Shown here in pieces: positions 1,519 to 13,175 of a stretch of DNA of 64,000 bases. The notes under the pieces are model-generated. The model was given only the letters and a program-made list of their open reading frames with translations, was not told the origin of the DNA and searched no databases. Location of the stretch: contig JAUPFP010000016.1 of assembly GCA_036925085.1 (NCBI GenBank), positions 961,501 through 1,025,500 of the forward strand, read 5' to 3'. Position 1 is the stretch's first letter. Each line of letters begins with the position of its first letter. The position numbers and the translations under genes are program-made. The DNA is from Brachycybe producta. Lineage: Eukaryota > Arthropoda > Diplopoda > Playtdesmida > Andrognathidae.

Positions 1519-2729
1519 TAAGTTACTAATAATGTGCTAACCGACATTTCTAAAGTATTATTTTTCTACTTGATTGTAAATATAATAAAGAAAATTATTT
1601 TATTGTTTGTACGAAGACAGTTGGCTTTATTTGGTTTGTTCTAGCTGCTACAAAAACATAGAACATTCTACATAAAAATTGATCAATAAAAATAACTATT
1701 GTTAGTATTTTTCTTATATCTACACATTACAGAAATCATCAGAACTTTAGCCTTATTTCAACGTTAACCCAAGTACGGATGTCTCATTCTAAAGCATTGT
1801 TTCCACTTGTACTCGTGAGCCTGTAAACATTTTTTTCTATAAAAAGATACACAAAGTCCAAAGCGATTTCTGCGTCTCCATAAATAAATGCACATTTTAG
1901 TGAGGTCTTCATGGGAAGAGGCTGTCCCCCTCCCCACATCTACATCGACTTATTTTCCCCTTCTGTACGTTTGTTTAGGAAGCAACAAATATTTTAATTG
2001 CCTTTTCAAAATTTGCAATTTATTAACAGTATTTTTGTCAAGGTCATGTAACAACACTTGAGTCAAAGTAGAAACGAACCTTTATGAATAGCTTTAAAAT
2101 AATCCACTAGTTAATTTAGAAACTAAATTAGTGCACAATTGTGCTCGTATTATCAACATGATTAAGCAAGAAAATAGCACATTTAACAAGTTTGGCATTT
2201 CAAAAAGCATATTTGATGACTTAGAAAAGAAGATTTCTGGTTGCATTAACGGTATTTAAAAATAATTATTTATGTCTCTTTTTGTTGCTGTTATTTTGAA
2301 ACGGTAGCAAGGAGTATTTGCATCACTCCAGAGAAACATTCATCTTTCATTATATTACAGAGCTGGAAACACATATATGGCTTTCACATAGAAATACATT
2401 TAAATACAAATTACCGGTAAAGTAGACAGTATTGGGAATTAATTTGTCAAAAATAATGTATTCCTGTAATCAAAATACATTATTTTTATAAAGTAATCAG
2501 TAAATCACCACATTTACTTTTGAAACTTTGTATATTTCTAATGGAAACACAATTACTTTTTAATTAGTTTTGCATTCAAATTTCTGTCCTCAAATTGCAG
2601 TAAAAAAAAAAAAGTGATCTGATCATTTCTGATAAAAAAAAGTAAACTCTCGAATCACACAACGATATATCCGATACAATCAAAAGTTACAAAAACGATA
2701 CCACTCTCTATACTTACATGAATTGATTG
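1519..2729. other. Intergenic spacer between ELP5 and MTHFR 3' ends
   Basis: The spacer lies between two convergent genes. It holds the ELP5 poly(A) signal at 1584-1589 and otherwise AT-rich sequence. I see no ORF of substance, RNA gene or clear transposon in it. Confidence 0.6.
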
Positions 2730-5462
2730 TTACTCTTCATTACTTGCTGCATAATCGCTTCGTTCTATTTGCTGTTTCCTTTCAAACATTGCTTCAATGA
2801 CATCCCAGAGGCAACTATCACGAACGAAATCATTATCCACCAGATTTACCAAATAGTAATGATCGCTTATGTAAGCGATCAGATTCCGAGAAGCAGAGTT
2901 CTCGGGATAGAGATGGCCCCACTGTTGCTTCCACAGAGCAAACGCTTCCTCCTGAAAACAAATGAAATTACGTTCTAGCTTCCTGAAAATTCTTTATCTT
3001 TGATGCCGTCGATGGAATGAGAAAATCGCACAACCTTCCAAACTTTAAAGCTGTCTGGATCGACAACTGTTGGTTGAATTATTTCTCGACCTGGAAACAC
3101 CCCCCCAAGTGACCGCAATCGGACGATGTTTGTGACAGTTGGTATAATCTTCGTCACCCTACATAAAGGAAAAAAAAAATTCAAACAAAAGCATCACACG
3201 ATTGAGATGTAACCAGGCTAAATTTTGCTTAAACTCAAGTTCTTAAAGATTCTTCCGAAACACTTTTTCTTTAAATTTATCGCAAGAAAATACAGGATTA
3301 ATTATGAAATAACTTCATTACGAAATATTTTAAAATAAACTTATTTTGGAGCTCTGGTTATTCTGCGTTTCAGAAAAACTGAAAGTGAGTTACAATCTAG
3401 AATAACTTTTTATGGACAAAAATTTAAAAAAAATCTCACCTTTAATTTTCAAAATGACATACAAAGCTTATTTTAAAAGATAACAACGTCAAAGTATGCT
3501 TAAGTGATTGAGCTACCCTTATAGTTGCAAAAACACTAAACTTTTCTTTATGTTTTACTTCATTTACAGTTTAAAACAACCTTAAAACTCTCGTCATAGA
3601 AGTTCCTTTTCATAGGAATCGTCATAAAAATGCCATTATCATTCATGCTTAAAACTTTGTTAAGGAAAATCAATGCTGGTTACATCATATGAAATAACCA
3701 TTAACCTTCCCAATGCTCCAGCATACCTTGTTATTTATAATATGGTAATTAACAGTAGGAAACCTCGGAAGAACTTCCATCAAAGCAACGACATTTTCTT
3801 TGCAAGTGAAAAATTCCAAATATGCCTGTCAAAATTTAAGTTACAAAATAAATAATTTTATCAATAGAAAACGTTAAAAAGAGATCAACTTTTTGATAAA
3901 TGTATCCTCCAGGTTGACCCCATCCTACAACAGGATCAGAAGATGGAAGACCGTTAACGTTTGGCTGCGAATTAATTGTCAGCACTCCACGTTTGTTCAC
4001 ACTTATCAACTGTGCCTGAAGAACATTCGTCTCCGGACGAAGTTCGTCATCGTTCCACGGAATGCGAGTCACCTGAACGAGCGAGTTTTTAGATTAAGAA
4101 ACTATTGACGTTATGCTGATTTCGATTTGAATCGCTCAAGAATCCCTTTGAAAAATAATTTGAAATTTTTTTTTGTCTAAATTAATTAGATAAAAATGTT
4201 TACAAAATTAATTTAAACAACGTTAAAACCCACAATAAATAACGAATAATAATAATAATAAAAAAAAATTCGCCACCATGATTCAAGTGATTCAGAACGT
4301 AAAGATAAGAAAAAAACAAAAACCTTTATGTTATTCTTGTTGCATTCCATCGAAACATAACACGAAAAAACATCAAACACATCTTGTTCGCATGTTAATT
4401 CTTCACTCCACATCTGCAACAGTTCATCATTACTACTTTTACTTTGCATAAAGAACAGATAATAATCCTTCAGATCTCCAAAAGCCGGAGAATCCGAACT
4501 TCCCCAACGACCGTTCGGAAACTCGTCCCAATTCTGAGTCCGATAAATGTAACTCCTTGGACGAGATGACCAGAAAATGGGTCTCACATCCTCGCTACAC
4601 CTTCTCGCATTTGCAGCCACCTTCCAAGGAAGAGACCTTCTTACGTCCTCGCACCAGAGACCGACTTTACGCAAGATTGTAATCGCAGCAAACTCGCGAT
4701 TCAAAGTGTATATATGAATTCCAGGAACGCGATCGTCGGCCAACAGTTCGTTAATCATATCGACGGTTAAAGATATTCCGTAATTACGGATCGCTTCATC
4801 GTTATCTTTCAAAGTCTGAACACAATCGAGAACTTTTTCAGGTATGTCTACTTTAGAAAGCCTCATGATGTGTTTCAACGACTCATAATTCTACCCTCAG
4901 AAAAGAATACATGCAAATTAAAAACTATGAAAAAAATGAACCCTTTAAGAGGCTAGAAACACTCCAATGTGCACGTAGCTGCATGACGTCATCGACGCAA
5001 TGTTAAGTGAAAAATTTGATGCCTTCAAAAACATGGTATCGATTCTGGCCCCCTTTTACTCTTTCAAAGTGAGTGTTGAAAAATAATTCAAATCGCAATC
5101 GCTTCTTGAATATTGTGTAGCCAGGTATTCATTTTTTTGTTGTAATATTCTAAGGACTTTTTATTGATTTACACGAATTTACTCGACAAAAGGTCCACTT
5201 TGCCAACTAGGTTACTGGATCTTCAGAAACGTTTTCAAGCATTCAGAAAAAAAAGTATGCGTATTCTTTAAAATGTGCATCAGATAATTTCATGATGTTT
5301 CTAATTACCATTTGGTTGCTGGAGTCATTTGAGTAACTTTGCAACCGAAAAATTAACCACGTTTCACAGCAAGTGCAACTCAAAGTGTCTAGGGCTCTCA
5401 AAAATAAGCTCCGATTAAGGTTTACCTGAATGGGCATAATGCCATCCACAAAGGATTCATTC
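2730..5462 (-). CDS. MTHFR: Methylenetetrahydrofolate reductase, C-terminal half only, with a frameshift
   Basis: MTHFR reduces 5,10-methylenetetrahydrofolate to 5-methyltetrahydrofolate. The part present is the end of the catalytic domain plus the linker and SAM-binding regulatory domain. Exons in transcript order: about 5462-5426 (ending DGIMPIQ), 4890-4324 ([31 protein letters not shown]), 4072-3890 ([21 protein letters not shown]), 3825-3727 (AYLEFF...NYHI), 3158-3035 ([14 protein letters not shown]) and 2951-2730 ([11 protein letters not shown], stop TAA). Junction phases agree, and the protein follows human MTHFR almost residue by residue. Oddities: the exon at 3158-3035 has seven Gs (plus-strand Cs at 3100-3106) where six keep frame. 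The first exon has no acceptor AG and an in-frame TGA just upstream. No sequence for the N-terminal TIM barrel was found before RCC2. It may be a pseudogene, a deletion haplotype or an assembly error. Confidence 0.9.
3355..3545. repeat. Degenerate palindromic MITE, family B, in MTHFR intron
   Basis: The right end reads GATTGAGCTACCCTTATAG and continues to AAACACT, matching the inverted terminus of family B (GTGTTTTAGAAACTAGAAGG facing its complement). The left end is decayed. It lies between the two MTHFR exons at 3158 and 3727. Confidence 0.5.
4945..5400. repeat. Palindromic element, family A, in MTHFR intron
   Basis: The sequence shares stretches such as the AACATGG-TC/A-TCGATTCTGGCC run, TGTGTAGCCAGGTATT and the end ...ATTAACCACGTTTCAC with the better-preserved copies at 55790-56640 and 58485-59300. 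It fills the intron between the DGIMPIQ exon and the next MTHFR exon. Confidence 0.6.
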
Positions 5463-5784
5463 AACAATCATGTCACGGTCACGTGTTATGTCACGGCCAT
5501 TTTGGATCCACTTAACCCATTTGTCATCATAACAATTAATAACTATATAATTGCAATTTCTTTTCATCGGTATTTCAGTTGATATTTCATGAAACAACTC
5601 AAATATATTTCTTTAAAAATACTTTATAATTTGTATAAAAATGCACTTAAATTACAAAAAAAAAACCATGACAACCTCACAAAGTTTCATAAATGTGGAA
5701 GAGAAAATAGCTATTCAAACTAGGTGATATTTCGCATACTGCTAGCCTCAGTGTACAAGCCTTTTCACGAATCCAACTTTTGTC

Positions 5785-8700
5785 TTACAGGAGGAGGCTA
5801 GTCGTGAGACAAATAGCAAATTTCTCCGATAGCTGTTTTCTCTGTATATACAGAGTGTCTCCAAAACCCCAATAGTAGCACCTTTTCTTGCTGTCCAAGG
5901 CCACCTGCAGATTTCAAAATTATCAACAACAACGGTTATCCAGTTACACCTACAACTACTACCGTGTGATTAGGTCCACACGAAATCGAAACGATGTGGA
6001 CATCGTCTACAGGAATAACATGACCCTCTCTTGTTCTCTCAACGTATATCATTATTCTACGAGGAACTAGTTCGCAGCGATAGGCCAGACGATTACTCGT
6101 GACGAAATATCGCCCATCCGTATTATGACCTATAAATGGAAAAAAAAAATCGCTGGTTGTTACTGACTTATTTTGTTAAACCTTAAAAAATTGAAACAAT
6201 TTTTGGTGATGGGATTTTTTTAAAATCGCACCACCAAAAATTGTTTCAATGAAAAATATTTCAATGGATAAATACTTTTGAAATACGTCAAAATAATACT
6301 GAACACGTAACAACTTATTTAATAAGTTCCAACCTCCAACAAATGCTAAAATTAGCAAAATGATATTAGATACACATTGTAAAACTAATACTTTTTCTAC
6401 TTTGCCCAACTATTGTTGGGAAGTTTGTTAATACACCACTTGTTCCTCATAACAAACAAACTGAACACTTCCAGCAAACGTATAGCAAACGTGCACTTTT
6501 GGGCAAAGTTACACTGCTGTGCAAAGTTACCCACCAAGTACCAAAATTCACAAATAAAATAGTCTCAAGTATTTACTAAACAGTAAATTATCGTTTTTGT
6601 CAGGCATTTCAAGCCCAATAAGTGTTATAAAGTATTTAATATGAGGGCAACCTCCAAAGTACATTGATAATTTGATATTGCAATGGGAGTATGCAATTCA
6701 CTTGTTTTTCTTTCAGGATTGACTAATCCCAGAATCCAACAAATCGAGGAATTCAGTGAACCCCAATGTCCACTTCGCCCAGGACTTTACCAAGCCACAA
6801 GGTCCACTGAACCTAGGTAAATGGCAAACAAACAAGAGCGCAAAAAGCAAGGACGCGATATGCAATATTTACCCCTGAATGGGCACAAACGATGTCACAG
6901 CAAAATGGCGACTAAAAATTAAGATATCGCCGTTGCTCAATGATACTAAAACAATGAATGTCAAATTAAAAAGGACCACTTGCGTTTGAATTTCCCTAAC
7001 TTGTTATTAATGGTATGACCTGGGCAACGTATCGACTCATACAATACATAAGTGTGCCCATAAAAAAGTTCTGCTACAAAAATAAGATTAACACCAAACT
7101 AACTACCTAGCTGTCCGTATTCTGGGCAGCCAAACGAACAGACGTTCCCCTTTGCGTCAACAATCATGCTGAATTCACCTCCACAAGATAACGTAACGAT
7201 GGGTCGTCCCTTGTACGCTATCTGCACGAAACAAGATACAAACAGACGCAAAATAACATCGTATAGCTTAATAAACAATACTTAAATAAAGAGCCGAAAA
7301 TACAAAAAAAAAAGATAAAAGCTTCAATGCAGTAGCCACAACAGCAAAGTGAAACTGATTGGTTAGAACATGTAATTATATATAATCTCACCTTCTGAGG
7401 CGAAGTGACCATTGGACTATTACTGCCAACTCCACACTGTCCATTCTTATTGTCTCCAAAACTATAAACATGGCCATGATCTGAAACAATAACACAGCAA
7501 ACGGATCCGTTCCCGTATTACATGCAAATGCTATTTACGAAATACATAGAAAGTGAGCAAGCATTCGTCGTTAATTACTTCCGAGGCTGTTAACCAAAAT
7601 TATAGAAGAAAAAGCCAATAAAATATTAATCACTGTTAATTTTGTTAAAATGGTCTACAACCATTAATTAATATAAAGATACACTGGACCAAACAGTTTT
7701 GTAAGGTGCGTTCGCAAACATACATTACATAATTTAGAATAAAAGCTTAAAACATACCTTTCAATCGCTTTCAAACTACAGGAATACGCAATTCAAACAA
7801 ACAAAATCGTCTATTGAAAAGTTTGTCATTCTAAACAATTTACAAAATTACGTTTCAGACAATTCCATTAACAGGATTTTTTAAAAATTCTCCCTCGTAT
7901 TGTACACTTGCGAATGCACCCTTAAACCTGTGCTTTAAACAAAACCAAAGTTAAAATCTTTGTTGTTGTGGCTACCTAACGAAAGCAAACTTAAAGTGTT
8001 GTAGGTAGTCATCAATAAAATACAGTGCAATAACTAGCAATACTGAATTAAAAACGAAAGTGATTCGTAGTCTATACAGAAAACAAAGACAGAAAGAGAG
8101 AAAATTAGAAAATATTTGGAAACCAGGATTGATGACTTCATTTAGAAAGAAACTCAAGAGTATTGTATCTCTCTCTCTCTCTCTCTCTCTTCACTCTCCT
8201 GTAATCCGCTAGTGTACTTTCAGAGTTCCCACTAAACATTTATTTTCATCATGACAGTTTTTTTACAGGTTTTTCCGGATCATTTTCTCTATTTTTCCAA
8301 TAAAAGGTAGCCTAATCTCAAAAGCACAAAACTGTGTTGAAGCTTTGAACGTGAACACAGCGAACGACTATTTTAAATTTCTGATGTATGCAATTGAAAT
8401 TAATAAAAAAACATTGCCATTAATTTTTCCTCCTGAGTTTTCCACTTTTTCCTTTTCCCCATACATAAATTCAGCGAGTTTTTTCTTTAGTATATTCTCA
8501 AAAATTTAAATCATATTTCAAATTCCCTGAGAATTGCAGGCATTCCATGTTAGTGAGAACCCCATTGAAGAAAAAGACGTGATTTTCAGATCTCACCTTG
8601 GAAGGAACTAAAACTCCCGACGTCTGAGTTCCTAACCCACATTGCCCTTGACTGTTGTCACCAAAGCTCATCACATGACCATGTTCTAAGGAACAACAAG

Positions 8701-9594
8701 AAAAAAAGAAGAGAAAAAAACAACAAGAGAGCAAAGATTCGTTGCTGTAATATTTTCAGAAAACGTTAAAAAAAAACTTCTAAAGATCTCGTTACGATTC
8801 TGAGTTCACCACAATTATGGTCCAGTGTATCTAAATGTTATTATTTTAAAAAAGCTAGCTAGTAAACCTTAAAACGAAGCTCGTATAATCTTTTAAAATA
8901 AACGTAAAAAATAAATATACAAACCAGTGAGAACGAGCGTGTGAGAACGTCCACACGCAGCATCGACAGCAACAACGTCCCGAAGACCTTCGACGTAAGC
9001 GGGATTGTCCTTCCGTTTCGTATCACCGTGTCCCAATTGTCCTTTATCGTTACGTCCTATGAAAACAACAAAAACAACTGATGCAGTCGCATTCTTTTTC
9101 GTATTGCTACTACTAGTTTTCCAAGTTTCTTTTAACCCCAAGTCATGACTTTTCCATCTTCTGTGATGATGACGTTGTGACTTGCAGAGTTTCCAGAGAT
9201 CGCCTTCCGAACTCTGATTCCCTTCAGCGCTTGGAGACGATGAGGACCATAGAGGTTACGCTCAGGTTTCGTATTGGCTGAAACATAAAAAGGGATTAAT
9301 TTGAAAACAACCAAGCAAACCTCCCCATGAATAAGACATCCGTAAAACGCAGCAATCACAGAAATCTAGAAAAAAAGAACAACAATTTCTGCAGGACTTT
9401 TTCTCTTTTTAGCAGTTTTTCGGTTGGTTCTCATGGTTTCCTGCAGATGCTTCTTAATTTCTTGCCGTTTCTGCGTTTTAGAGGTGAATCGAGATTTACA
9501 AATAACGACACTTACAACGTTTACGACCCAACTGGTCCCAGTTCGTTCCACCACAAAACAGAAGCGTTCCACAATTCTCATTCAACGGAATTCT
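5785..9594 (-). CDS. RCC2: RCC2/TD-60 homologue (RCC1-like beta propeller), lacking start exon and C-terminal third
   Basis: RCC2 is an RCC1-superfamily propeller tied to mitotic centromeres, the chromosomal passenger complex and small GTPases. Exons in transcript order: 9594-9516 (GTNWDQLGRK), 9277-9137 (NLYGPHRLQALKGIRVRK), 9056-8925 (RNDKGQLGHGDTKR, CGRSHTLVLT), then either 8685-8597 or 7480-7392, then 7221-7107 (CGGEFSMIVDAKGN, CPEYGQL), 6129-5963 (RCELVPRR, ISCGPNHT) and 5904-5785 (LDSKKRCYYWGFG). Phases agree throughout. Human RCC2 continues about 170 residues after WGFG. Here the frame runs into about 20 unrelated residues and stops at 5785-5787. No ATG exon was recognised upstream of 9594, and the leading Lys-rich tail typical of RCC2 was not found. 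Its broken 3' end faces the broken 5' end of MTHFR. Confidence 0.85.
7392..7480 (-). CDS. RCC2: RCC2 alternative exon, version 2 (89 nt)
   Basis: It follows a TTTCAG acceptor and ends at a GTGAGA donor. It encodes DHGHVYSFGDNKNGQCGVG and eleven more residues. By eye 17 of 30 residues match the exon at 8597-8685. It enters in phase 1 and leaves in phase 0 like its twin. Because 89 is not a multiple of three, joining both exons would shift the frame, so only one can be used per protein. Confidence 0.85.
8169..8191. repeat. (TC)n microsatellite in the long intron between the two RCC2 alternative exons
   Basis: An uninterrupted CT dinucleotide run on the plus strand; in the RCC2 transcript it reads (GA)n. 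It lies in the 1.1-kb intron between the alternative exons. Confidence 0.85.
8597..8685 (-). CDS. RCC2: RCC2 alternative exon, version 1 (89 nt)
   Basis: The exon is flanked by an AG acceptor and a GTGAGA donor. It enters in phase 1 (codon split G|AA) and leaves in phase 0. It encodes EHGHVMSFGDNSQGQCGLG and eleven more residues, an RCC1-type blade equivalent to human ETGSVFAFGENKMGQLGLG. It has the same length and phases as the exon at 7392-7480. Confidence 0.85.
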
Positions 9595-10550
9595 CTGTAT
9601 ATAGTTTAAATACTCAATTAATTTCAGGTTAAATGTTTATTGTATTTGACAACATTTTACAGAAGTTGGCATCTACATAATATTTGAAACTACACAAAGC
9701 GACACGGCACACTGCCCTTGCACGATCTTTGTTCTACATACACACACACTATAGGGTTGTAGTAATTTGCCAAGAATAGCAAAGAGGAGGATTGCCTCAA
9801 TAGAATTTTTCTTTTTTTTATTCCCACTTAAAAACTAAGGTCTGATTCACACGGAACACTTTGGTTGCCACAGAAGTGATCCATTAATTACTATGGAGGT
9901 GTTCACATGAGACACCGCCCCCTTTTTTCTCTACAGTGTCGATGGAGTGTTTGAATTCAGCCACGAGTGGTGAACACCATTCTGCTGGCAATGGTGACCA
10001 AGGTCGTCCTGTGGAATGTACTGGGCAGCATTTCATTGTTTCCTATGTTGGTCCCGTGTGAAGCAAGCCGCGTCAAACACTTCCAGCTACTTTTAGGAAG
10101 CAAATTATTGTTTTAGAAAATGTGTATCAAGTATAATTAATTTTCCAGATAAGACATTTAATGTTACACGTTTAATAGAAGTTGGAATGTGAAAATATGT
10201 GATTTTGTCATTCAAGTTGTTTAAATTTCCCACCAAATAATATGAATTTTTTTCCTTTTTTCAAAAGTTTATATAAAATTCATTTCTAAAGCTATCGTTA
10301 TGAAAATACGGTCATTCTTTTCCTTGTTTGTTCTAATTTACAATTAAGTTTTGATTTACTTTTATATCAAGTTCTGAAAATTGCATAATTGAACGGAGAA
10401 ACGTCTTATCGCAAACCAAATCCTTTTAGCAATATGACGTCTTGCGCAGATCAAGCAAACGGTAGTCGCTATCTGCGCACGCTCATGGACCCTCCTCCCC
10501 CTCCCCCCCTCTATCGAGCAATCCTCTTCTCTTTAATATTCCTGAGTTCT
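9595..10550. other. Divergent intergenic region upstream of RCC2
   Basis: The region should contain the RCC2 first exon and promoter, but I could not identify an ATG exon. At about 9842-10070 a weak inverted repeat (TCTGATTCACACGG ... CCCGTGTGAAGCAAG) suggests another MITE. The rest is AT-rich with a C-rich run near 10490-10511. Confidence 0.45.
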
Positions 10551-11240
10551 ATGGAAGCCCGTTTGGGACATTTCGCACAATAATTTACGTTCAATAATAT
10601 TGCGTGCGCGCTCAATAATATTGTGCACACGCACAATAATATTGCGCGCACACACACAATAATATTGCGCACACACACACAATAATATTGTGCACACACG
10701 CTCAATAATATTGTGCGCACACGCTCAATAACATTGTGCACACACACACACAATAATATCTTACGTTTGTTCTTAGCCACCTTATATTATATACCTACGA
10801 ATACGAAGCCGCATAAGTGACAGGTAGTTAGAAATAGGTGAAAACTTCAGTTGGCTCCGCCCTTGTTATGACGACTGGCAACTTCTAATTGGCTGGTTAT
10901 GAAGTCTGACGTCATATGCTCTGCCCTTTTCAACGTCAGATTACAAAACCAGCTAATTAGAAGTTGCCATTCGTCATAACAAGGGCGGAGCCAACTGAAG
11001 TTTTCACCTATTTCTAACTGCCTGTCCATAAGTGTGGCCGTATCTTTTTTTGGCGCCATAAGTGGTGCCTTAAGTGTGGCCATGTCTTTTTTTTTAACTT
11101 TATTTAATTTTGTGTATGTCCTTTACATGGCTTCGTACACAATATTATTGTGAGTTTGTGCACAATATTATTGTGCGCGTACGCAATATAATAATATTGT
11201 ACATAAATTATTGTGCGAAATGTCCCAAACGGGCTTCCAT
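10551..11240. repeat. Foldback element with internal CAATAATATTG tandem repeats
   Basis: The arms ATGGAAGCCCGTTTGGGACA (10551 onward) and their complement (ending 11240) define an inverted repeat of about 690 bp. Inside both arms are repeats of CAATAATATTG joined by GTGCGCACACGC-like spacers (10593-10760 and 11125-11205). A separate 206-bp MITE of family C sits in the middle. The short minus-strand ORF here only translates the repeats. Confidence 0.85.
10820..11025. repeat. Palindromic MITE, family C (copy 1), nested in the foldback element
   Basis: Nearly perfect inverted halves starting ACAGGTAGTTAGAAATAGG and ending with the complement CCTATTTCTAACTGCCTGT. Each arm carries GTTGGCTCCGCCCTTGTTAT. 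Four other copies lie in the window at 14069, 30070, 31945 and 32318. Confidence 0.9.
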
Positions 11241-11304
11241 ACCAGATGGCGTATCCTGCCGTATTGAGATGGGAGAAAAGTAAACTACTGAAGTAACGTT
11301 AGGG

Positions 11305-13175
11305 ATGTCTTTAGAACAAACTGTCGGCGAAGGTAAATGCTCTTGTGTTACGTTTTAGTCTATTTAAATGCATTTATGTAACATTAAATTAAATTAATTA
11401 AGGGTTCGTTTGTTTCGAGTTTATTGTACGTTCAATAAAAAAATCAATCACTTTGCCGTAGACGAATTGATGTGACATGCCGTCACATTTATGATGTCAA
11501 ACTATATTACTAATAGGGGTCCTAATATGGCCTTTTTCTTGCGATTTGGATGTCAATTCGACTCCATATTAGTTTATAAGTCTTATATTAATATCTACGG
11601 CGTTCTGTATTTTATGCTTCTTTAATCGCTGCTGTAGAAGAGATGGTTTCTGTCACAGACTCACAGTATTATTACTTTTCAGATTTGAAGGCATTTGAGC
11701 GCCGTCTAACGGAGGTTGTTTCAAACTTACAACCGGGAACTTACAGATGGAGGAGTACGCTTTTTAATTAATTATCAACTAAATTCATGTTTGAATGGTA
11801 ATAAATTGCTTATTTCTCAACCGTTTGCGTTGTTTTTTTTTTAGTTATTTTATTCGTCATTTCTGTTTGTACGGCAATTGGTGCTTGGCAATGGCTCGCA
11901 GATTCTCTAACATACCAAGTAACTTAATACCTTTGCAGCAACTTGATTTGCAATCCCATCTGAATATGATTATCTTGTTTCAGGTGACGTTCTTCCAGTC
12001 ATTAGTTAATCATCCGTTCTTTGCCATCAGTAGTGCCATGTTATTGACTCTTTTCTTGGCTGGAATACATAAACGAGTCGTTGCACCGACAATGTATCTT
12101 TTTTAAAACTGATGAAACAAACTTAATTATTACTCATGATGTCTATAAAGGTCTCTAGGATTCGGACTCGCTGTATCTTGAACAGAACACAGAACTTTAA
12201 AATGGTTTATGAACAGGTGACTTTCGAATTCCAATTATTCTTGCATTCAACGGGCTTTCCAGTGCAAAATGAAGAAAAATTTAAATGTGTTTAGAAACTA
12301 GAAGGGTAGCTCAAGAACATAAGGGCATTTTTCATGTTGAAATTTTTCTAAATAAGCTTTTTATGTGAGTTTGAAAGTGACTGTACTTTAATAAGATGCT
12401 ATTATTTTTATCTTTTGTCTATAAAATGTTTATTTTGAAAGATAACAAGAAAATAATCTTAACCCCCCCCCCATATTTCTAGTTTCTAAAACACTTTCTT
12501 GATTCTTTTCATTTTGCTCCTGAGCAATCAGAATAATTAAGTTTGAAAATCAGGTGTTCATAAATCTTCAACACCATCAAACTTGGTAAACGGGATATAG
12601 GGGCATTGTGGGGTCTGTGTCAGTTTGGCACAAAATTGAAACGAGTGGAGAGATGATGATGATGATAAATCTTAATTAACAAAAGTTTGATTTTTTTAAA
12701 AAATATGAAATCGTGAATATTAACAACTCTGCTTTTAGCAACTAGAAATTACTGAATCGAGGGAAGGTTATTATCATATTGACACCTCACAAATGAAAAA
12801 CATATGCTTTTTTTTTAAATGATGAAATGACATTTTTAATCTAAAATTTACAAATACGACAAAAGGTATATTTTGAACGATATCAACATTAGTTATTTAC
12901 AAGTCAAGTTTTTAATACACTGCTTAACTCAAACGTGGAGTCTCTTTAAGTTTTATTGGCGTTGTTGTTACATTTTTTTTGGTCATTGCTGCTATTTACC
13001 CTTAAACCAAGTAAAAAACAGCGTTACCTCAAGGGTAAGGCAAGTTTTACAAGATTTTAACATGTCCTGTGACAATGTAAGCCTTTTACGAACTACAAAA
13101 CTCGAAAAACATTTTAAAACCTTTTTTTCTTAGACTGGAAAGTTAATATTGAAGCCGAGACCGACCACAACGTAA
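11305..13175 (+). CDS. CNEP1R1: Nuclear envelope phosphatase regulatory subunit 1 (CNEP1R1/TMEM188), complete
   Basis: CNEP1R1 is a small two-helix membrane protein that binds and stabilises the phosphatase CTDNEP1, which dephosphorylates lipin at the nuclear envelope and ER. Exons: 11305-11332, 11683-11754, 11845-11918, 11984-12093, 13022-13076 and 13134-13175. They sum to 381 nt (126 residues plus stop), against 125 residues in human. Seen: [20 protein letters not shown] near the N-terminus, a membrane segment [17 protein letters not shown], a second one in [24 protein letters not shown], then [11 protein letters not shown] and the end [10 protein letters not shown]. All introns are GT-AG and phases agree. 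The fourth intron is the long one and holds a family B MITE. The gene is convergent with MED10: the stop codons are about 150 bp apart. Confidence 0.95.
12288..12502. repeat. Palindromic MITE, family B, in CNEP1R1 intron
   Basis: The left end TTTAGAAACTAGAAGGGTAG faces the right end TTCTAGTTTCTAAAACAC, near-exact complements, about 215 bp apart. The interior is AT-rich without an ORF. Confidence 0.85.

Follow-up and report, generated by a model that had tools for sequence, protein, structure and literature searches.

The RCC2 Copies and Their Surroundings

The window considered here, i.e., the whole stretch of 64,000 nucleotides that was analyzed (C16:961501-1025500), carries on its minus strand part of a gene for RCC2, a conserved protein with reported roles in the cell cycle and the control of Rac1 (PMC7838589, PMC4179493). 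When three complete relatives were used as tblastn queries, residues 82-341 of the 504 residues of P0001 were matched in order in the window, and beyond this interval only weak matches to repeated blades or to unrelated places were found there. The exons are listed in Table 1, together with the other features discussed below. Exon 1 and the sequence past the middle of exon G are absent from this copy, which therefore cannot make a complete RCC2.

Table 1. Positions of the RCC2 exons, the duplicated block and the complementary intron arms (window coordinates unless C16 is given).
Feature	Position	Strand	Basis or remark
Exon A	9516..9594	-	tblastn; start taken from the complete gene
Exon B	9137..9277	-	tblastn
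Exon C, upstream neighbor common to D1 and D2	8925..9056	-	tblastn
Exon D1, divergent version of the blade segment	8597..8685	-	AG/GT borders, phases, open frame
Exon D2, conserved version of the same segment	7392..7480	-	AG/GT borders, phases, open frame
Exon E, downstream neighbor common to D1 and D2	7107..7221	-	tblastn
Exon F	5963..6129	-	tblastn
Exon G, first 46 nt (copy ends here)	5859..5904	-	181 nt in the complete gene
Partial inverted RCC2 duplicate	5859..10549	-	blastn to L009 3180-7992
Complete-gene stretch with D1 and D2	C16:1651676-1653742		
Arm a, C-D1 intron	8818..8840, core 8818-8832	-	inverted pair I12, 23 nt, 87%
Arm a', D1-D2 intron near D2; pairs with a, encloses D1	7669..7691	-	inverted pair I12
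Arm b, D1-D2 intron	7958..7986, core 7958-7975	-	inverted pair I13, 18 nt, 94%
Arm b', D2-E intron; pairs with b, encloses D2	7321..7349	-	inverted pair I13

A search of the genome (295.3 Mb in 442 contigs) revealed a second RCC2 copy, this one complete, approximately 0.68 Mb from the first on the opposite strand of contig C16. It consists of exon 1 and exons A-I (C16:1649766-1656720) and encodes 523 amino acids. The original prediction had treated the gene in the window as the working RCC2, a view that must be given up, as the window holds a truncated duplicate of this distant gene. The two copies are 95.3% identical over 4824 columns (blastn), and the breakpoints of the window block fall inside intron 1 and inside exon G. 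Between them, 3 of 855 aligned exon sites and 57 of 2868 intron sites differ (Fisher P 0.0003); exons B to F are identical, and D1 and D2 each show 0 differences in 89 positions, the absence of change in D1 being a weak signal (with the intron rate, P 0.17). Of the three exon differences, two alter an amino acid and lie in the cut exon G; in one case the complete gene has the residue of P0001 and P0002, and in the other it is the nearer copy. In our view the copy in the window is a young partial duplicate of RCC2, an assembly error being a possible alternative origin.

In Pfam comparisons the complete gene scores 237-242 bits for the RCC1-like domain PF25390 and contains five RCC1 stretches. 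It alone of the two copies both encodes an RCC1-like propeller and groups with RCC2 proteins, thus resembling the RCC2 (TD-60) of other animals; residues 77-505 of the RCC2 of Chamberlinius match human RCC2 (PDB 5GWN).

The complete gene contains exons C, D1, D2 and E in this order, with one set of flanking exons, and the D1/D2 pair is thus not an oddity of the broken copy: a real feature of an intact, distant gene can show in a truncated one. The same arrangement speaks against a joining of D1 and D2 from different RCC2 paralogs by rearrangement or assembly, an idea that draws its appeal from the setting of the window copy, itself a rearranged fragment: it lies next to a truncated piece of MTHFR, and the region contains inverted copies. 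Neither of two further results sits well with such a joining: the divergence ratios, computed with 16 of the 120 relatives introduced below, lie between 0.93 and 1.01 for exons A-C and E-G, with D1 alone raised (1.12), and the 1.7-kb C-E region, used as a query against the genome, found the two copies along with eight matches of 30-63 nt. We regard this origin of the pair as very improbable.

The MTHFR fragment follows the RCC2 copy at 2781-4887 (minus strand) and corresponds to the C-terminal half of the protein; no N-terminal half was found in the window with a human MTHFR probe. MTHFR-like exons occur on C16 at about 0.947 Mb (minus strand), at about 1.605 and 1.631 Mb (plus strand) and in the window (eight matches). 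The MTHFR and RCC2 matches together indicate that pieces of the 1.60-1.66 Mb region recur, inverted and rearranged, at about 0.95-0.97 Mb. The upstream end of the RCC2 duplicate is adjoined exactly by an inverted-repeat element (10550-11241) with 52-nt arms (10550-10601 and 11190-11241, 94%) and inner tandem and inverted repeats. Note also that a 16-base perfect palindrome, recognized by eye, lies at 5840-5855, four bases past the end of the RCC2 copy.

Architecture and Reading Frame of the D1/D2 Exon Pair

Both in the window copy and in the complete gene, D1 and D2 are 89 nt long, are entered in phase 1 and left in phase 0, and have AG/GT splice borders. The original prediction had given the coordinates, the equal length and these phases exactly. 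It had also proposed that the use of both exons or of neither would break the frame, and this holds for both copies. In the window, C-D1-E and C-D2-E are open and C-D1-D2-E and C-E run into stops; the complete gene encodes 523 residues with D1 or with D2, meeting a stop at residue 283 when both are joined and at residue 238 when neither is. The rule that both or neither leads to a premature stop is a property of the sequence itself.

The two encoded segments are identical at 17 of 30 residues, the figure first obtained by eye, and 13 residues differ, nine of them at positions 18-29, past the GQCG turn, where most had been placed from the start. According to the original prediction, such differences might alter a face of the propeller that binds partners. 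Their BLOSUM62 score of 99 amounts to 58-61% of the self-scores, with a maximum of 30 in 5000 shuffles of D1. An origin of D1 from a different propeller blade was rejected: the best 30-residue match of D1 within the protein is the D2 segment (99), and the next five matches are shifted windows of that same segment.

Equal length, shared frame, compatible splice sites and homology are the features by which Pillmann et al. characterize mutually exclusive exons (PMC3228551), and D1 and D2 resemble their exons in each of these, the comparison being one of sequence. The lengths (89 and 89 nt) lie within the default tolerance of 20 amino acids (PMC3228551), the splice sites are compatible and the frame is shared, and the homology of 58-61% of the self-score, calculated with our own BLOSUM62 settings and not with the program of Pillmann et al., compares with a minimal score of 15% (PMC3228551). 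According to the same source, these features also recur on the fly X chromosome, in 90 of the 16180 exons there that lack an annotation as mutually exclusive. The proposal that D1 and D2 are mutually exclusive exons derived from tandem exon duplication has thus agreed with every sequence criterion applied and has gained by the finding of the pair in the complete gene; on this sequence evidence it is very probably correct.

Two causes of exclusive splicing were considered for the pair and set aside. Steric exclusion was rejected, the D1-D2 intron measuring 1116 nt in the window copy and 1231 nt in its complete counterpart. As for mixed U2/U12 splicing, the introns touching D1 and D2 are GT-AG, and none looks U12-like by eye.

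Conservation and Possible Constraint of the Two Versions

In the 120 relatives listed of 4379 matches, each protein has one version of the segment, and here there are two. D2 shares 26 of 30 residues with the RCC2 of Chamberlinius and 21 of 30 with P0001, and D1 shares 17 and 16 of 30, respectively, with these two closest relatives; by these comparisons D2 is the conserved form and D1 the divergent one. Raw identity over the 120 listed relatives and the two window rows places 59 sequences nearer D1 and 47 nearer D2, with 16 ties, and many vertebrate and mollusc sequences among those listed are slightly nearer D1 by shared residues. D1 retains G3, G9, Q15 and G17, which are invariant in all 120, as well as V5, N11, G14 and G19, which are present in 116-119 of the 120 listed. 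It deviates at two conserved positions, K12 (K in 117 and R in 3 of the 120 listed) and residue 6, where 114 of them have F or Y. At position 21, D1 has the Q of 108 of the 120 listed relatives, and D2 and Chamberlinius have N.

At the nucleotide level, the differences between D1 and D2 are distributed over codon positions 1, 2 and 3 as 9, 8 and 22, and pS is 0.79, which is beyond correction, versus a pN of 0.34. In a neutral simulation D1 was allowed to change freely from D2, and runs were kept if the frame remained open with at least 17 identical residues and all eight conserved ones. The fraction of runs kept was 26% at 5 substitutions, 8% at 10 and 1.7% at 15, falling to 22 of 4000 (0.55%) at 20, 3 of 4000 (0.08%) at 30 and 0 of 4000 at 40. 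Up to 10 substitutions the neutral model is still compatible with D1, as the 8% of runs kept at 10 indicate. Because D2 is its starting point and any change along the D2 branch is left out of account, the simulation speaks for constraint without giving it a date.

These observations bear on the possibility that D2 is constitutive and D1 a relict or a message-destroying poison exon, so that one protein only would be made. Such a role would fit the conserved character of D2, seen best in its likeness to Chamberlinius, the deviation of D1 at two conserved positions, and the stop that follows when D1 and D2 are joined. It would also fit the outcome of two protein searches, neither of which turned up a protein with three five-residue words in common with D1; in these searches isoforms differing by this exon only would be merged by the 90% clustering. 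A relict or poison exon would, however, have no need to retain the open frame, the matching phases and the conserved residues of the blade; the excess of third-position differences and the rarity with which neutral runs of at least 20 substitutions keep these features tell against it as well, and the scores on the RCC1-like domain are close, 237.4 bits for the D1 isoform and 241.5 bits for the D2 isoform. We consider this explanation improbable, and an alternative use of both exons the better reading of the pair.

Phylogenetic Position and Age of the Exon Duplication

A tree built without the D exon, in which 29 relatives from the 120 listed were included, groups the complete gene with Chamberlinius, a millipede, and P0001 (98% bootstrap), placing it outside the pair formed by these two (93% bootstrap). 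The natural reading of this position is that the host is a myriapod. The fly RCC2 gene is presumably the one named CG9135.

The attachment of D1 itself was evaluated over its 30 sites. The best position is the stick-insect branch (log-likelihood -1116.66), which is not a credible history, followed at -1116.74 by the branch between all other sequences and the group of this gene, Chamberlinius and P0001. The arrangement with D1 as sister of D2 reaches -1119.43 and is not rejected (AU test 0.167). As D1 has at position 21 the Q of most listed relatives, it may be an early branch. The exon may have been duplicated before this lineage and Chamberlinius separated; the likelihoods decide neither point.

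Complementary Sequences in the Flanking Introns

A repeat search of positions 2700-12000 yielded 18 inverted pairs. Two of them connect introns that flank D1 and D2. Another is an AT-rich imperfect palindrome (7365-7396, minus strand), which spans the 5' splice site (donor) of D2 and could mask it. Arms a and a' contain 15 consecutive complementary pairs; b (7958-7975) and b' (7332-7349) pair at 17 of 18 positions, 12 of them consecutive, with five further pairs outward. The order in the RNA is a-D1-b-a'-D2-b', each exon being enclosed by its own pair and the two pairs crossing. Genome-wide, there are exactly four occurrences of the a 15-mer and four of the b 18-mer, namely both arms in both RCC2 copies; being confined to these, the core arms of a/a' and b/b' are not dispersed repeats. 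The local duplexes have calculated energies of -28.5 (window) and -28.2 kcal/mol (complete gene) for a-a', and of -34.2 and -34.9 kcal/mol, respectively, for b-b'.

Because this pattern had been noticed before the tests, all counts of stems given here are descriptive. In 3000 dinucleotide shuffles, a run as long and complex as the observed one was found 0 times for a-a', 6 times for b-b' and 0 times for both. The same geometry was moved over 1492 overlapping genomic placements covering about 259 kb (the window apart from 5801-10700, plus 20 stretches of 10 kb each), of which 43 reached a-a', 53 b-b' and 1 both; when the arms had also to be unique in this corpus and no longer than 25 nt, the counts were 17, 20 and 0. 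With a looser score, 35 and 18 of 240 genomic placements were as good, 5 of them for both, and inverted repeats are common in this genome. A further genomic control gave 18 and 27 of 520 placements, with 0 for both.

Two earlier tests may be added. In the first shuffle test, the best pairing between the C-D1 and D1-D2 introns was not a-a' but that of the D1 pyrimidine tract with a GA repeat (as high in 1 of 1000 shuffles); b-b' was reached in 2 of 1000, and the control introns C-D1 and D2-E were ordinary (307 of 1000). This tract belongs to the acceptor of D1, and the GA repeat, which is complementary to it and of low complexity, lies at 8168-8189 in the D1-D2 intron. The first genomic control, in which the arms were partly masked and which was later replaced, gave 58 and 223 of 585, with 25 for both, or 18 and 35 of 585, with 1 for both, when judged by perfect run length.

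Partition-function folding gave mean pair probabilities for a-a' of 0.34 in the window and 0.41 in the complete gene, and for b-b' of 0.61 and 0.55, respectively; either stem can be forced at a cost of 0 to 1.8 kcal/mol. When the whole region was folded as a control for 31 shuffles and 32 genomic pieces, 11 of the former and 9 of the latter had helices above 0.3 at both positions, and the partition function was dropped as proof of a switch, given such comparable helices. A total hybridization energy as low or lower was found for the C-D1 with the D1-D2 intron in 162 of 599 shuffles and 306 of 598 genomic pieces, and for the D1-D2 with the D2-E intron in 409 of 599 and 308 of 598, respectively. 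The folding and hybridization controls do not single out this locus.

It could be argued, from these global controls and from the frequency of inverted repeats in the genome, that the exons are alternative but that their exclusivity comes from the frame and nonsense-mediated decay alone, the stems being incidental; the frame rule, true in both copies, would be enough. What such an account leaves aside is the presence of two crossing, exon-enclosing arm pairs whose sequence is unique in the genome, and the rarity of the joint pattern in the shuffles and in the 1492 placements. We think it unlikely, while giving it some weight.

A Model for the Choice between D1 and D2

The explanation that we favor, and hold to be probable, is that D1 and D2 are mutually exclusive exons of a myriapod RCC2 whose choice is aided by crossing intron pairings; if the exon pair is accepted, a contribution of the pairings to the choice appears reasonably likely from the arrangement of the arms. 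Formation of a-a' would loop out D1, bring exon C near D2 and favor D2, and formation of b-b' would loop out D2, bring D1 near exon E and favor D1. Because the pairings cross, the two would compete. Messages with both exons or with neither would be removed by nonsense-mediated decay, and the products would be two RCC2 proteins with 13 residues different, mostly in one propeller loop. A stronger version, in which two crossing intron helices would act as a bistable pre-mRNA switch choosing the version of an RCC2 propeller blade, outside insects, is offered tentatively and may well prove too strong.

A layout of this type is known from the srp gene of Drosophila, where two complementary sets, one per exon, were described by Yue et al., one of them being suggested to form at a time, and where the crossing layout makes the pairing combinations unequal (according to PMC6071210). 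As in srp, each exon lies here within its own complementary intron pair, and the arm for the second exon is upstream of that for the first, so that the pairings cross (PMC6071210). Differently from srp, the present case concerns another gene in another animal group, with putative stems derived from one genome and two near-identical copies.

The exon pair is a feature of a known kind, and the RCC2 case was not met in the open-licence literature: among the titles of open-licence papers surveyed, none described a mutually exclusive exon pair in RCC2, RCC1 or millipedes, which agrees with the original statement that no such pair had been described for RCC2. If the model is true, two swappable versions of a blade would constitute a natural experiment on the roles of the propeller faces, and crossing, exon-enclosing stems in a myriapod would allow the bidirectional pairing model to be compared outside insects.

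Other Genes in the Window

A long gene at about 16-29 kb looks virilizer-like by eye only, two of its open reading frames having no Pfam match. Between 40828 and 62721, exons of RBM39, meckelin (TMEM67), an M28 peptidase and a cytochrome P450 were recognized by Pfam.
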